Shown here piece by piece: positions 12,525 to 19,568 of a stretch of DNA of 36,625 nt. Below the pieces are notes generated by a model that saw only the letters and a list, made by a program, of their open reading frames with translations, did not search any database and had not been told where the DNA came from. Within the stretch, counting starts at the first letter, position 1. Each line of letters begins with the position of its first letter. Origin of the DNA: Chloroflexota bacterium (GTDB taxonomy: Bacteria; Chloroflexota; Limnocylindria; Limnocylindrales; CSP1-4). Location of the stretch: positions 1 through 36,625 of the forward strand of contig JANYJI010000060.1 in assembly GCA_025358525.1 (NCBI GenBank). The letters are read 5' to 3'. Position numbers and translations under genes: made by a program.

Positions 12525-15128
12525 ATGTGGTGGCTTGTCATGATTACTCCTGCTCGAGAGGGCACCGAGCCGCTCTCTGCTCGTTTCGCCGACCTGTCCG
12601 AGACCGCTGCCCAGCTGTCAGCCGACTCCGTTCTGGAAAGGCTCGGGACAGACTCTTCACTCGGCCTCACACCAGAACAGACTTCAGCCCGCCTCGCCGA
12701 GTTCGGTCCAAATGAGCTGGAACCGTCGCAGAAGACCTCGCTGTGGCGCCTTATCTGGGACGGCGCGCGCGAGCCGTTCGTCGTCCTGCTCTTCATCGCC
12801 GGCTGCCTTGCCATCGCCCTCAACGAGGTTCGCGACGGTCTGCTGGTACTCGTGATCCTGGCCCCGATCGTCGGCGCGGGCGTTGTGACTGAGTACCGGG
12901 GCGAGAAGGCACTCGAGGCCCTGCGCGATGCCGCCGCACCGCTGGCACGGGTCAGGCGCGGCGGTACCGTGGGCGACGTTGCAACTCGCGACCTGGTGCC
13001 GGGCGATCTGGTTCTGTTGCGCGTCGGCGACGTGGTCCCGGCCGATCTTCGGCTCGTCCGGGCCGAGGCCCTGAGCTTCGACCGCAGCGTGCTGACGGGC
13101 GAGTCGCTCCCGGAGCCAGCCGCCGTGGAGCCAGCCCCAGAGGGCGTGGCTCTGGCCGATCGCCGCTGCATCGCCTACGGTGGCACGGCAGTGGTCGGCG
13201 GGCGCGGTGAGGGCGTGGTGATCACGACCGGTTTGCGGACCGAGTTCGGACGCATATCCCAGGCTCTGGCCGGGCGCGAGCGGCGCCGCTCGCCGCTGCA
13301 ACGGGAGATGGATCGGCTCGTCAGGATCCTCCTCTTCGTGGCCATCGGTCTCATCGCCACGGTGGTCACGCTGGGCTTCCTGCGCGGCAATGAGGCCGGC
13401 AAGAACGTGCTGGCGGGCGTCTCGGCCGCGATCGCGGCTATTCCCGAGGAACCGCCGGCTCTCGTGGCGGTGGTGCTGGGTCTGGGCGCCTATCGACTCC
13501 TGCGCATGAAGGTGCTTGTCCGCCGTCTGTCGGCTCAAGAGACGCTAGGCTCGGTCGATCTGATCATCACCGACAAAACGGGCACTCTGACGGAGAACCG
13601 GCTTTCACTGACTGCCATTCGCACTCCGGAAGGCGTGGTCGAGGATCAAGCCAGGGTGGTCGAACTGGCAACGCTGGCCGTTCGAGCCGAAGAGGACGCC
13701 TGGAGCGTTGCCACCGGCAGTAAGCCCGGCTCGTTCAGTCGATCGCTATTCGGGTTCCTATCCGAGCAGGCCGTGGTCCTGGACCTGGACCCCCAGGATC
13801 TATTAGCCGCCGACCCGGTCAGTGATGAGCGGCCCTACTCGCGTACGAGAGCCCGCAGCCGGGACGCCGCCGGCGGTGCGGTCGTTGAGGAGCTGGCGCT
13901 GGGTGCGCCGGAGGCGGTCCTCGAGATGTGCTCCGGCCTCTCGCCAGCGGAGCTAGTTGCCTGGCACGATCTGGTCGAGAGTGGGGCGGAAGCCGGGGAG
14001 CGGCTTCTGGCGCTGGCACGCTGTCTGGAGGGCGAACAGTGGCTGCCGCTCGGTGTGCTCGCCTTTGCGGACCGCATCCGGCCGGGGATCCGGGAGGCCA
14101 TGGCTCTGGCGCGCGCTGCCGGCATCCAGACCATGGTCGTTACGGGCGACCATCCAACCACTGCCGCGGCAATCGCCGCGGATGCGGGCCTGCCCAACCA
14201 GCACGTTGTGACCGGCCCTGAGCTGGCCACCTGGGACGATGCCCGACTCGCCGACGAACTGCCCCGACTCCACGTCGTGGCCCGGGCCATCCCAGAGCAG
14301 AAGCTGCGCATCGTGGATGTGGCTCGAGGCTGCAATCGGACCGTGGCCGTCACCGGCGACGGTGTCAACGACGCCCCGGCTCTCCATCACGCCGACGTGG
14401 CCGTGGCCATGGGCAGCGGCACCGCAGTAGCCCGCGAGGCCTCGGACCTCGTTCTTGGCGACGATTCGTTCGTGACCCTGATGCACGGTCTGCGTGAGGG
14501 CCGTCGGCTGGTCGCCAACGTCCAGAAGGGCCTGATCTTCCTGGTCTCGACGCACGTTGCGATGCTGGGTTTCATCCTCATCGCGACCATCGCCGGCTTC
14601 GGCCAGCCGCTCCTGCCAATCCAGATCCTGTGGCTGGAGGTCTTCATCGACCTGCTCACGGCGGTCTCATTCGAGGGCGAGGCGGAGGAGCCGGGAGCGA
14701 TGGAGCGGCCGCCGCGACAGAGGACCAAGCCGTTGCTCGATTGGTCGATCCTGGTTCGGATCTGCCTGGCGGGCGGCTTCAGTGCCTTCGCCGCGCTGTG
14801 GTTGATCGAGCAGCACAGCACCGACTTCACGCATGCCCGCTGGCTGGCCTACACCGCCTTGGTCGTGGGTCAGGTCGTTCGGGCCAATGCCAATCGGAGC
14901 TTGTCGCATCCGGTATTGCTGCGCCGCCCCAACTTCCTGTTGCTACTGGGGGGCCTCCTCTGCCTTGGCATCCAGGTGGCGATTCCGTTCGTGCCACCCG
15001 TCCGGGACGCCTTCGCAGCCACGCCGCTCGATGCCTTCGACTGGCTGCTGGTGGCGGCAATTGCGCTGGCCCCGGCTGTGGTCGCAGAGGCATATCGGGC
15101 CATTCGTCATCGTCCCTGGGTCGCCTGA
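12525..15128 (+). CDS. P-type cation-transporting ATPase
   Basis: TGES, DKTGTLTENR, TGDGVNDAPALHHADVAVAMG, multiple TM. TM4 reads AAIPEEPPALV. Internal start at 12540 also possible. Confidence 0.92.
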   Translation: MWWLVMITPAREGTEPLSARFADLSETAAQLSADSVLERLGTDSSLGLTPEQTSARLAEFGPNELEPSQKTSLWRLIWDGAREPFVVLLFIAGCLAIALNEVRDGLLVLVILAPIVGAGVVTEYRGEKALEALRDAAAPLARVRRGGTVGDVATRDLVPGDLVLLRVGDVVPADLRLVRAEALSFDRSVLTGESLPEPAAVEPAPEGVALADRRCIAYGGTAVVGGRGEGVVITTGLRTEFGRISQALAGRERRRSPLQREMDRLVRILLFVAIGLIATVVTLGFLRGNEAGKNVLAGVSAAIAAIPEEPPALVAVVLGLGAYRLLRMKVLVRRLSAQETLGSVDLIITDKTGTLTENRLSLTAIRTPEGVVEDQARVVELATLAVRAEEDAWSVATGSKPGSFSRSLFGFLSEQAVVLDLDPQDLLAADPVSDERPYSRTRARSRDAAGGAVVEELALGAPEAVLEMCSGLSPAELVAWHDLVESGAEAGERLLALARCLEGEQWLPLGVLAFADRIRPGIREAMALARAAGIQTMVVTGDHPTTAAAIAADAGLPNQHVVTGPELATWDDARLADELPRLHVVARAIPEQKLRIVDVARGCNRTVAVTGDGVNDAPALHHADVAVAMGSGTAVAREASDLVLGDDSFVTLMHGLREGRRLVANVQKGLIFLVSTHVAMLGFILIATIAGFGQPLLPIQILWLEVFIDLLTAVSFEGEAEEPGAMERPPRQRTKPLLDWSILVRICLAGGFSAFAALWLIEQHSTDFTHARWLAYTALVVGQVVRANANRSLSHPVLLRRPNFLLLLGGLLCLGIQVAIPFVPPVRDAFAATPLDAFDWLLVAAIALAPAVVAEAYRAIRHRPWVA

Positions 15129-15265
15129 GCGATCCAAAAGGGGTCGCGTCGTTTCGATACCGAGCACGTCATTTTCACCAATCGATCCGCTCGGCGACCG
15201 CGCCCGACGGAATCTGCATAATCGAGGCTAACACCACGTGCCTGCTCCAACGCCAAGGGGAAGCA

Positions 15266-16210
15266 ATGTCACTGATAGTCGATTCGGTGTCCAAACGCTT
15301 CGGCGAAATCCATGCCCTCGAGGGCATTTCGCTCGAGATCAAGCCCGGTGAGGTCTTTGGACTCCTGGGCGCCAACGGTGCCGGCAAGACGACCGCGATG
15401 CGCATCGTCCTCGATATCCTCCGGCCCGACTCCGGCACGATCTCTTGGAAAGGCAAGCTCAATACCGAGCTGCCGCGCGAGACCTGGGGTTATCTGCCCG
15501 AGGAGCGGGGCCTCTACGCCAAGATGAACGTGCTCGACCAGCTCGTGTTCTTCGGCAAGCTCCATGGTTTGCGGGGCAAGGCGGCCGAGCGCGAGACCCG
15601 CGACTGGCTCGAACGCTTCCGGATCCCCGAGTACGCCGATCGGCGGGCTGAGCAACTCTCCAAGGGCAACCAGCAGAAGATCCAATTCATCGCCGCAATC
15701 CTGCACGACCCACAGGTGCTCCTGATGGACGAGCCTTTCACGGGTCTTGATCCGATCAACGCTGCGCTCCTCAAGGAGGCCTTTCTCGAGTTGAAGGATC
15801 GAGGCAAGACGATCATTTTCTCCACTCATCAGATGGAGACGGTGGAAGAGATGTGCGAATCGATCGCCATCCTCGATCGCGGGCGGGTCGTCGTCTGCGG
15901 GCCGGTGCGCGAGGTCCGACGCTCGAGCGGCCGACAGGTGGTTCGCCTGGCCGTCGAGGGCGACCCCGAGATCGCCTGGCTCGGCACGCTGGATGGCATC
16001 GTCGTCGAGCGGCGCGGTCAGGACTACACGGAGGTTGAGGTGGCGCCGGGTCACGATCCTGCGGTGGTGCTCCAAACCGCTCTGGTGCGGGGCTGCAAGG
16101 TCCGGCATTTCGAGATCGCCGACCCCTCGCTCGAGGAGATATTCATCGAGCACGTGGGCCAGATCGACTCGAGCGAACGAACGCTCGCCCCCAAGACGGT
16201 GCACGCATGA
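15266..16210 (+). CDS. ABC transporter ATP-binding protein (NatA/EcsA-like)
   Basis: Walker A GANGAGKTT, signature LSKGNQQKIQF, Walker B VLLMDEPFTGLDP. ORF track start 14630 is an out-of-frame extension through the ATPase gene. Confidence 0.92.
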   Translation: MSLIVDSVSKRFGEIHALEGISLEIKPGEVFGLLGANGAGKTTAMRIVLDILRPDSGTISWKGKLNTELPRETWGYLPEERGLYAKMNVLDQLVFFGKLHGLRGKAAERETRDWLERFRIPEYADRRAEQLSKGNQQKIQFIAAILHDPQVLLMDEPFTGLDPINAALLKEAFLELKDRGKTIIFSTHQMETVEEMCESIAILDRGRVVVCGPVREVRRSSGRQVVRLAVEGDPEIAWLGTLDGIVVERRGQDYTEVEVAPGHDPAVVLQTALVRGCKVRHFEIADPSLEEIFIEHVGQIDSSERTLAPKTVHA

Positions 16211-17520
16211 ACGGCTGGCGGACTCTCTTCCCCAACGCCCGGTACATCGCGATCCGCGAATACCGGAGCCGCGCAAGGAGCCGCAGCTTTGTCATCGGCA
16301 CACTCATCCTGGCCGTCCTGGCATTCGCAGCGACGCAGACACCGATCCTGATCGACGCGGTGGCGGGCGGGAGCAAGACCAAAGTCGAGGTGGTCGTCCG
16401 TGCTGCTGGCCTGCCGTCGGACGCACAGACGGTCCTCGATCAGGCCCTCAACGGCGCGCCCGCACCCGGATCGAGCCAGCACAAGAGCTTCGACTTCAGC
16501 TGGCTGACGTCGGACCAGCTTTCGCCCGCACAGAAGGTTCTGGAGGCGGGCAAGTTCGATGCGCTGCTCATCGTCGACCGCGACGCGAGCAGCCGCGACC
16601 TTGTCTTTACGCTGCGAACCGACCTGCCAGCCGACGGCCGGCAGGCTCAGTTGATCGCCAACGCCGTTACATCGCTCACGATCGAAGACAGGCTGGTTCG
16701 GGCAGGGACGTCGGCCGCCGCCATACTCGCGCCCACCAGGTGGGAGGTTCTGCCGGTCAACTCATCCGCCGCGACGCCGGTCAACAGCCTCAACCAGGAG
16801 ATCTCGTCCACTCTTCTGTCGACCGGTCTCATCGTCCTGATCTTCATGGCCATCATCACTTATGGGGTCTGGGTGGCGATGAGCGTGGCTGAGGAGAAGG
16901 GCAGCCGGGTGATGGAGCTGATGCTCAACGCCACGACACCTCTACAGATGCTGACCGGCAAGGTGATGGGCAACGGAGCTGCGGGGTTGACCCAGTACGG
17001 CATAGTCCTGGGCGCGGTGGTGGCCGGCCTGCTAGCCCAGGGCCCGATCCATAAGGCTGCCTTGGGCACTGATGCGGGAGCTCAGTTCGGGGGGCTCAGC
17101 CCGACGGTCCTGGTCGCTTTCGTGGTCCTCTTCGTCCTTGGCTTCCTGCTGTACTCACTTCTGTATGCCGCACTCGGATCGCTCGTCAGCCGGCAGGAGG
17201 ACGTCCAGAGCGCCACTTCGCCGTTGATGATGCTGATCATGATCGGCTACTTCCTGTCGGTCTTCGGTCTGCAGGCCATCGATGAGACATGGGTCAAGGT
17301 CGCCTCGTTCGTGCCCTTCTTCAGCCCGTACCTGATGCTGGCCAGGGTCTCGATGGGCCATGTCCAGATCTGGGAGTTTGCCCTGGCAATCCTGCTGCTG
17401 ATCGCGAGCATCGCCGTGGCACTCTTCGTTGCCGCTCGGATCTACAGCGCCGGGGTCCTTCTGTACGGTCAGCGAGTCGGTCTGCGCCAGGTCCTGCGGG
17501 CGGCACGGATGTCGCGCTAA
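16207..17520 (+). CDS. ABC-2 type permease (NatB-like)
   Basis: IREYRSRARSRSFVIGTLI, AMSVAEEKGSRVMELMLNATTPLQMLTGKVMG; 4-bp overlap with the upstream ATPase. Confidence 0.92.
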   Translation: MNGWRTLFPNARYIAIREYRSRARSRSFVIGTLILAVLAFAATQTPILIDAVAGGSKTKVEVVVRAAGLPSDAQTVLDQALNGAPAPGSSQHKSFDFSWLTSDQLSPAQKVLEAGKFDALLIVDRDASSRDLVFTLRTDLPADGRQAQLIANAVTSLTIEDRLVRAGTSAAAILAPTRWEVLPVNSSAATPVNSLNQEISSTLLSTGLIVLIFMAIITYGVWVAMSVAEEKGSRVMELMLNATTPLQMLTGKVMGNGAAGLTQYGIVLGAVVAGLLAQGPIHKAALGTDAGAQFGGLSPTVLVAFVVLFVLGFLLYSLLYAALGSLVSRQEDVQSATSPLMMLIMIGYFLSVFGLQAIDETWVKVASFVPFFSPYLMLARVSMGHVQIWEFALAILLLIASIAVALFVAARIYSAGVLLYGQRVGLRQVLRAARMSR

Positions 17521-17573: not shown

Positions 17574-18305
17574 TCAGAACTCGAGTGGCAGGCGCTGGAT
17601 CAGGGCCAGGACGGGCCGTGTTGGCGCCGCAACTTCCTGCTCGGCCAAGACGTGAAGAGGCATTTCGCCCGGTTGGGTGGCAATCGAGCGCCACAGTTCA
17701 CTCTGGCGGCCGGGCAAGTATGGGCTGCGCAAGTGGCGTGCCATCACTCCCCGCAGCCCCTGCTGGGCCACGGCGAAGTAGAGATCCAGCCCCTCGCGCA
17801 CGACGCCCGGCAGCACGACCAACTCCTGGCTGGGCCGAACGATGCGAGCCAGATGCTCCCGGCGACGCAGGAGCGGCTGGGCGATGATCGGCCGGCCGGC
17901 GACCCACAGCAAGTCGAAAGCAAGGTAGACGGGCGTCGAGTCGGTCCGGCTGCCGTCGGCCAGGCGACCGACGAGGGCATCCTCGTCCATGCGGCCGACT
18001 TTGTCGGGAATGACGATCTCGCCGTCGAGAATGGCGGGCCGGCTGCCCACCAGATCCGGAATTCCGGCCAGTTCGGGCAGGTACGGAGCCAGGTCGCGGC
18101 CCATCTCATCAAGCAGACGAAGCCGCGGCCCGTGCGCGCCGTCCGGTTCGATGAAGGCCAGGGCTCGGCGGCCACCCCAGCGCGGCTCGAAGACATGGTC
18201 GTCGGAGTCGAAGGGGGCGTGGGCGGGTTTGGGCAGCATCGGCCGCAGCGAACGGGGCAGGCGGGCCACGTCGCCGGTTAGGCTCAGCGAGAGCTGGTCT
18301 GACAC
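17574..18305 (-). CDS. ATP-dependent DNA-ligase-like nucleotidyltransferase domain with degenerate active site
   Basis: Ligase-like framework (RPMLPKPA, FEPRWGGRRALAF, AILDGEIVIP, VYLAFDLLW, GLRGVMARHLRSPYLPGRQSELW), but the motif I Lys is Arg and motifs IV/V are altered. Confidence 0.75.
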   Translation of the reverse strand: MSDQLSLSLTGDVARLPRSLRPMLPKPAHAPFDSDDHVFEPRWGGRRALAFIEPDGAHGPRLRLLDEMGRDLAPYLPELAGIPDLVGSRPAILDGEIVIPDKVGRMDEDALVGRLADGSRTDSTPVYLAFDLLWVAGRPIIAQPLLRRREHLARIVRPSQELVVLPGVVREGLDLYFAVAQQGLRGVMARHLRSPYLPGRQSELWRSIATQPGEMPLHVLAEQEVAAPTRPVLALIQRLPLEF

Positions 18306-18358
18306 GCCCCGATACTACGCCCTGACGCTGTTCGCGCCCCTGCGATTTCTGGGAGCGA

Positions 18359-19420
18359 TCAGTACTTCTCGGGGACGAAGTGCTGCTTGCGGATGGGAGG
18401 GCGCTTGTAGCCCTTGTCCACCTGGCGCGGCGGCAGAACGATCTGATCGGGCGTGGTGTCCTCGTAGGGGATCATGCCCAGAAGGTGGCTGATGCAGTTC
18501 AGCCGGGCCCGCTTCTTGTCGTCCGCCTCTACCACCCACCAGGGCGCCTCGGCCGTGTTAGTGGCGGCGAACATGGCGTCCTTGGCTCTCGAGTAGTCGA
18601 CCCACTTGGAACGGGCGGTGACGTCCATCGGAGAAATCTTCCAGCGCTTGGTCGGCTGGTCGATCCGATCCTGGAAGCGGCGTTCTTGCTCCTCGTCGCT
18701 GACCGAGAACCAATACTTGATCAGGATGATTCCCGAGCGGACGAGCATCCGTTCGAACTCGGGCGCCGTCTTGAGGAAGTCCTTGTACTCCTCCTGCGTG
18801 CAGAAGTCCATGACGTGCTCGACCCCGGCTCGGTTGTACCAACTGCGATCGAAAAGGACCCACTCGCCGGCGGCCGGAAACTCGGCCACATAGCGCTGGA
18901 AGTACCACTGCGTCTTGTCGCGGTCGGTCGGGATGCCTAGGGCGCAGATGCGAGCGACGCGCGGGTTGAGGCTCTCGGTGATGCGCTTGATGACGCCGCC
19001 CTTGCCGGCCGCGTCGCGTCCTTCGAAGAGGCAGACGACTTTCAGGCCGCGAGCCTTGATCCACTCCTGGAGCTTGACCAGCTCGATCTGAAGATGTACC
19101 AGCTCCGCTGCGTACACCTTGCCCTTGAGCTTCTTGCGGCGCCTCTGAACCCGGTCGCCCGTACTCGGGTCGAATGCGTCAGCGCGGGCAATACGGGCAT
19201 TCTGCTGATGCTCCGTCCTAGATCGGACCACTCGCTTCTCGCGCCGAACGACCGCCGCGGCCTCTGCCCTCGACGCCCCGCTCTCGTCCGCGACACTCGG
19301 CTGCGCCGGCTGCGCCGACGCCGAGGGCGGCGGATCTGAAGCGGCGTGGGTGACCGCTGAGGCGGGGTCGTGGAGCGACCCCTTCATGGTGCCGTGACCT
19401 TTGCTGCGATCTTTCGCCAC
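18359..19420 (-). CDS. ppk2: Polyphosphate kinase 2 (PPK2 family)
   Basis: VVCLFEGRDAAGKGGVIKRI (Walker A), WVLFDRSWYNRAGVE (Walker B), TQWYFQRYV. GTG at 19420 preceded by AAGGAGG; ORF extends to 19441. Confidence 0.95.
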   Translation of the reverse strand: MAKDRSKGHGTMKGSLHDPASAVTHAASDPPPSASAQPAQPSVADESGASRAEAAAVVRREKRVVRSRTEHQQNARIARADAFDPSTGDRVQRRRKKLKGKVYAAELVHLQIELVKLQEWIKARGLKVVCLFEGRDAAGKGGVIKRITESLNPRVARICALGIPTDRDKTQWYFQRYVAEFPAAGEWVLFDRSWYNRAGVEHVMDFCTQEEYKDFLKTAPEFERMLVRSGIILIKYWFSVSDEEQERRFQDRIDQPTKRWKISPMDVTARSKWVDYSRAKDAMFAATNTAEAPWWVVEADDKKRARLNCISHLLGMIPYEDTTPDQIVLPPRQVDKGYKRPPIRKQHFVPEKY

Positions 19421-19568
19421 GCGGACCTCCTTTTGACTCACGGTAGGTCATGGCGGGCGCCGAGGCAACGGCCAACAGGAGCAGGGTCGTCGCCGCCGAG
19501 ATGGCCCCGCAGTAGTACGTCAGCGCGATGAGGTGGCGAACCATTGTGTCTAGTACCATCCCGAACGG

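Follow-up and report, generated by a model that had tools for sequence, protein, structure and literature searches.

Bacterial NHEJ is usually described as the work of Ku together with LigD or LigC. In ligases, the Glu of motif III contacts the ribose and the Phe of motif IIIa stacks on the adenine. The Mtb Ku core binds the ligase domain of LigD (PMC9638933), vertebrate Lig4 still promotes repair when it is inactive (PMC9638927) and contributes structurally to synapsis (PMC10858965), and bacterial polymerases bind the clamp through a hexameric motif, QLxLxL (PMC4564189).

The window, i.e. the whole stretch of 36,625 nucleotides that was analysed, belongs to the draft MAG of a soil Chloroflexota bacterium. 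It holds on its minus strand (17574..18305, with a GTG start codon) a gene for a 243-aa degenerate LigD/LigC-type nucleotidyltransferase (NTase) domain with no OB domain, to which we refer as the pseudoligase; window features given below lie on the minus strand unless stated otherwise. Our preferred reading, to which we give a probability of roughly 0.6, is that this inactive LigD/LigC-type domain is an NHEJ-linked, clamp-tethered scaffold at Ku-bound ends, a reading in which we infer both the binding and the function.

Fold and catalytic motifs of the pseudoligase

The profile and structure searches that the earlier note had proposed both led to ligases. PF01068 (DNA_ligase_A_M) matched residues 32-205 (E=2e-12), the AF2 model (pLDDT 82.9, pTM 0.80) had the mycobacterial LigD ligase domain (6nhx) as its top Foldseek match (E=3.7e-15), and LigD-type ligases are the nearest NCBIfam and PDB relatives, so that by profile and predicted model the NTase fold is retained. 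PF04679 (OB domain) gave no match in the protein, in which motif V is followed by a short disordered linker; disorder is predicted at residues 1-11, where the pLDDT is below 50, and at residues 215-233. The pI is about 6.3, and DNA binding by an NTase domain that has no OB domain may be weak.

The open reading frame reads as first described, i.e. as a ligase-like protein without the catalytic Lys. In the degenerate motif I, FEPRWGGRR (residues 39-47, 18165..18191), the nucleophile Lys is replaced by Arg (R42) and the Asp by Gly, and the codons of EPRWGG (GAG CCG CGC TGG GGT GGC) bear out the CGC that had been reported for the Arg. The metal-binding Glu is gone from the degenerate motif IV, RGVMARH (residues 185-191, 17733..17753), as is the Lys from the degenerate motif V, LWRSI (residues 204-208, 17682..17696). 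The framework motifs III (DGE, residues 94-96, 18018..18026) and IIIa (FDLLW, residues 130-134, 17904..17918) are present here as had been claimed, but the claim does not extend to the Ku-linked sister form described below, in which DGE is lost (DGT or DGW) and the Phe of motif IIIa is gone. Taken from the sequence, all the residues examined that adenylation needs are lost in the pseudoligase and the fold is kept.

When 61 related genomes were searched at the protein level, all 20 congeneric ones (mostly fen-soil 'Chloroflexi bacterium' MAGs by their records) proved to have an orthologue, in most cases with 70-82% identity; orthologues from several further genera of the family share about 43-52%. 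The catalytic loss is conserved across the family and in all 21 genomes of the window genus with a readable motif. Lys stands at the nucleophile position in none of the 25 aligned family members, the intact motif I that might have spoken against the earlier note thus being found in 0/25, and W43-G44-G45 is invariant. The alignment that had been called for shows the loss of the Lys and the WGG to be conserved, but not the Arg itself, since the aligned WGG orthologues have Arg, Asn, Ser, Ala or Ile in that place, with Thr in one further family member; the sister form has Trp (FEPWWPG). The motif IV Glu and the motif V Lys are absent across the whole clade, and in the window genus the median dN/dS is 0.18 with zero internal stops, which points to purifying selection. 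These clade-wide losses, that of the OB domain included, uphold the suggestion of a non-ligating paralogue.

Singleton decay or a sequencing or assembly error, to which a draft MAG assembly could be prone, has a negligible probability and was ruled out, since the same losses recur in all 20 congeners and in many family members, at a dN/dS of about 0.18 and with no stops, and since the position is never Lys, the WGG is invariant and some orthologues have no lysine at all. This last observation also disposes of an altered chemistry through another lysine, which had been suggested: no alignment column has a Lys share above 48%, i.e. there is no conserved Lys column, and the orthologues L033 and L034 are lysine-free, so an alternative nucleophile Lys was ruled out.

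A second stand-alone Lys-less ligase-like family, of ~232 aa, is present at another locus in most genomes of the window genus, with the motifs VEPSWSGVRV, DGFLTV and FVAVDLL and PF01068 matches at E of about 1e-7 to 1e-10. It was located at L198:2225-3322 (minus strand; window genome, C131), L199:1956-2663, L200:1976-2668, L204:1722-2417 and L205:2067-2786 (all plus strand) and L201:1946-2638 (minus strand). Micromonosporaceae proteins at L086:2377-3525 and L090:7401-8558 combine an N-terminal LigD-phosphoesterase-like sequence with a ligase-like domain that has no motif I Lys (YELDWDG, FEMTWPG) and stops after motif V.

The sister form and co-occurrence with Ku

A search of the class brought out a sister pseudoligase form of the same length, with FEPWWPG or FEAWWPG as its motif I. 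In 29/31 loci its gene comes immediately downstream of Ku in the same orientation, abutting or slightly overlapping it; these are 19 Ku loci of the L107-L126 set, G025, G057 and G059, five loci of g24, and G126 and G143, in which the sister form is fragmentary and occupies the same place after Ku (g-numbers denote genera and f-numbers families, g1 being the window genus, i.e. the window genome and its 20 congeners). The exceptions are G026 and G140. The gene order is Ku - pseudoligase - LigD in genus g24 and LigD - Ku - pseudoligase in G141. The window form (WGG) is not adjacent to Ku in the window genome or its genus, and no genome was found in which both forms are present together, the two being mutually exclusive.

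Across the family, the pseudoligase and Ku were both present in 66 genomes, the pseudoligase only in 4, Ku only in 2 and neither in 12 (Fisher p=1.3e-9), and the unlinked WGG loci outside the window genus gave 34/4/2/12 in the same order (p=6.6e-7), in tests that ignore phylogeny and were made on incomplete, phylogenetically non-independent MAGs. Genera g2, g3, g7, g17 and g30 each hold double-positive and double-negative members. The pseudoligase was found without detectable Ku in genus g5 (G024, G114) and also in G121 and G152. Ku was found in 0/19 small sister-family (f2) genomes, whose weak ligase matches are ordinary ~600-aa ligases.

In the core-column tree each form is supported and the union of WGG and WPG is not (47/8); the union reached a support of 95* when the terminal motif columns were included, a value on which we did not rely. 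Given this core-only tree, it is their architecture, their shared end motifs and their complementary distribution that speak for the two forms being orthologous.

The slot after Ku is held in families f3 and f5 by an intact K-containing ligase (FELKWDG or FEVKWDG, EGIVAKR, OB domain). Intact ligases of ~360 aa were observed directly after Ku at L192:7258-8346, L193:2705-3811 and L195:7771-8859, and the f3/f5 loci also carry a divergently encoded LigD-size protein, which makes for a two-ligase NHEJ locus. In the window genus, Ku and the pseudoligase are present in 21/21 genomes and the LigD phosphoesterase domain in 6/21, and since a LigC-like ligase is widespread, NHEJ may run there on Ku and LigC. 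The window genome itself encodes LigC (NF006078, 505 bits with a cut-off of 296), which makes LigC a candidate active partner in this genome.

As far as sequence alone can tell, the Ku operon and the co-occurrence data would fit equally well a negative regulator or decoy, in which the dead domain fills Ku or the DNA ends, blocks LigD/LigC and thereby limits error-prone joining; an inert domain could for instance compete for a Ku-LIG interface of the Mtb type (PMC9638933). However, where Ku, the pseudoligase and LigD follow one another in the same direction in one operon, the middle place is more usual for a helper, and we regard a decoy as quite improbable compared with a scaffold that assists joining.

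Conserved end motifs and the PPK2 neighbour

Near its N terminus, in a segment predicted to be flexible, the window protein carries QLSLSL (residues 4-9, 18279..18296), which fits the hexapeptide sliding-clamp-binding consensus QLxLxL. QLx[LM]xL occurs in 25/25 WGG family orthologues, those of the Ku-less g5 included, and QLxLx[LIV] in 18/21 sister-form proteins despite their variable linkers. The pattern QLx[LM]x[LIV] was not found elsewhere in the pseudoligases, is present in 0/19 active ligases examined and turned up in about 0.5-1.3% of shuffled N-termini. The DinB of the window genome has QITMF in its C-terminal region, which suggests that the clamp of this host uses ordinary motifs.

At the other end, the tail PVLALIQRLPLEF (residues 231-243, 17577..17615) is of the LALIxRLPL type, which is found in 25/25 WGG and 21/21 sister-form pseudoligases (46 in total). 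As a second clamp motif it was rejected, having no fit to QLxLF or QLxLxL. A similar tail, of the RPRLVVLQSLPF type, is carried by the intact Ku-linked ligases of the sister families f3/f5; a profile test of tail homology between these and the pseudoligases gave one weak match, so that the similarity rests on eye and position; it makes a common partner, for instance Ku, a fair guess.

Upstream of the pseudoligase lies a PPK2 polyphosphate kinase (18359..19441; PF03976, E=7e-104), on the same strand and with a gap of 53 bp, exactly as had been noted. It is a neighbour and not a conserved partner, being present beside 13/20 congeneric loci, absent beside the other 7/20 (L056, L057, L059, L062, L066, L067 and L070) and found beside no family member outside the window genus. 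Between the two genes, 12 nt before the start codon, there is a -10-like box (TANNAT) reading TAGTAT (18312..18317). TANNAT lies 12-15 nt upstream of the start in 23/25 family orthologues (12 nt in most congeners), with an expectation of 0.8% per shuffled sequence, and this spacing makes it likely that the box is the pseudoligase's own leaderless promoter. The coupling to PPK2, and with it the co-expression that the earlier note had thought plausible, was rejected on this promoter-like box and on synteny. A convergent ABC permease is a more constant neighbour than PPK2; at 12525-17520 the window has, in convergent orientation to the pseudoligase gene, a P-type ATPase and an ABC pair resembling NatAB, with synteny kept genus-wide and partly family-wide.

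A nucleotide (ATP/ADP) sensor coupled to PPK2 would draw on the adjacency of the two genes in the window genome and on the DGE and FDLLW contacts of the WGG form. However, PPK2 is inconstant within the genus and missing outside it, the gene has a TANNAT box of its own, the phosphate and metal contacts are gone, and the sister form is without the ribose-binding Glu and the adenine-stacking Phe, which weakens the idea of nucleotide sensing to the point where we hold it to be very improbable. Of the earlier sensor proposal, the nick sensor comes close to what fits best: with the Ku operon, the co-occurrence with Ku and the clamp-binding consensus, this is a role at DNA breaks.

The clamp consensus could also serve a more general role in replication or repair, in which a clamp-tethered pseudoligase competes with or recruits nick-processing enzymes and the Ku link is partly historical. 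The motif is indeed kept in all aligned WGG orthologues, even in the Ku-less g5, and the WGG gene, which has its own promoter-like box, stands at a distance from Ku. We nevertheless find this explanation unlikely, as within the family the presence of the unlinked WGG genes goes with that of Ku all the same, and the sister form is tied to Ku.

Proposed role in end joining and comparison with known systems

According to the scaffold reading, the NTase domain of a LigD/LigC-type NHEJ ligase would have lost AMP uptake and DNA sealing and would have a structural role in Ku-dependent end joining. The N-terminal QLxLxL is predicted to dock the protein onto the sliding clamp of the DNA; the dead NTase domain, the tail or both may contact Ku, or DNA ends to which Ku is bound; and the pseudoligase, as a scaffold or placeholder, would pass the aligned break to the active LigC or LigD. 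By analogy with Mtb Ku-LigD and with Lig4, it would most probably engage ends bound by Ku, or the complex that joins them, with no sealing of its own. The broader proposition, that a permanently inactive NHEJ ligase joins Ku-bound breaks to the replication clamp and provides a separate subunit for a Lig4-like synapsis, is a tentative one about which we are rather doubtful. No match for a Ku-linked pseudoligase or for a LigD-clamp link was found in the literature, in which subscription journals were thinly covered. If true, bacterial NHEJ would gain a further component, a conserved dead ligase that is tied to Ku throughout a lineage; the structural part played by an NHEJ ligase, studied until now through Lig4 mutants, could then be examined in a natural protein in which it is separate from catalysis. 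The clamp motif raises, moreover, the testable possibility that break joining and the replication clamp are connected.

The LIG domain of LigD and the stand-alone LigC resemble the pseudoligase in NTase fold, in motif order and in the Ku association of the sister form. They differ in having the OB domain, the Lys of motifs I and V and the Glu of motif IV, all of which the pseudoligase lacks, whereas the N-terminal QLxLxL and the C-terminal LALIxRLPL are extra features of the pseudoligase. The intact f3/f5 ligase (L192:7258-8346) shares with the Ku-linked pseudoligase its position after Ku and a hydrophobic tail of the RPRLVVLQSLPF type, but it differs in its intact FELKWDG and EGIVAKR, in the Lys that it keeps in motif V, in its OB domain and in the absence of QLxLxL. 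The second ~232-aa family (L199, L200) is alike as a stand-alone degenerate NTase domain (VEPSWSGVRV) and differs by its other locus, by a long insert before FVAVDLL and by having no QLxLxL or RLPL tail.

Among clamp-associated proteins, the clamp motif of Hda is QLSLPL. The QLxLxL clamp clients, such as E. coli Pol IV with QLVLGL (PMC4564189), show this hexapeptide consensus too, likewise in a terminus that is flexible, but their domain is unrelated to that of the pseudoligase, for which clamp binding is predicted. Vertebrate Lig4, finally, is alike in that a ligase fold helps to join ends although it does not do the sealing itself (PMC9638927, PMC10858965), a capacity that we infer for the pseudoligase; Lig4 is however catalytically active and has DBD, OB and BRCT domains, whereas the pseudoligase is permanently inactive and minimal.
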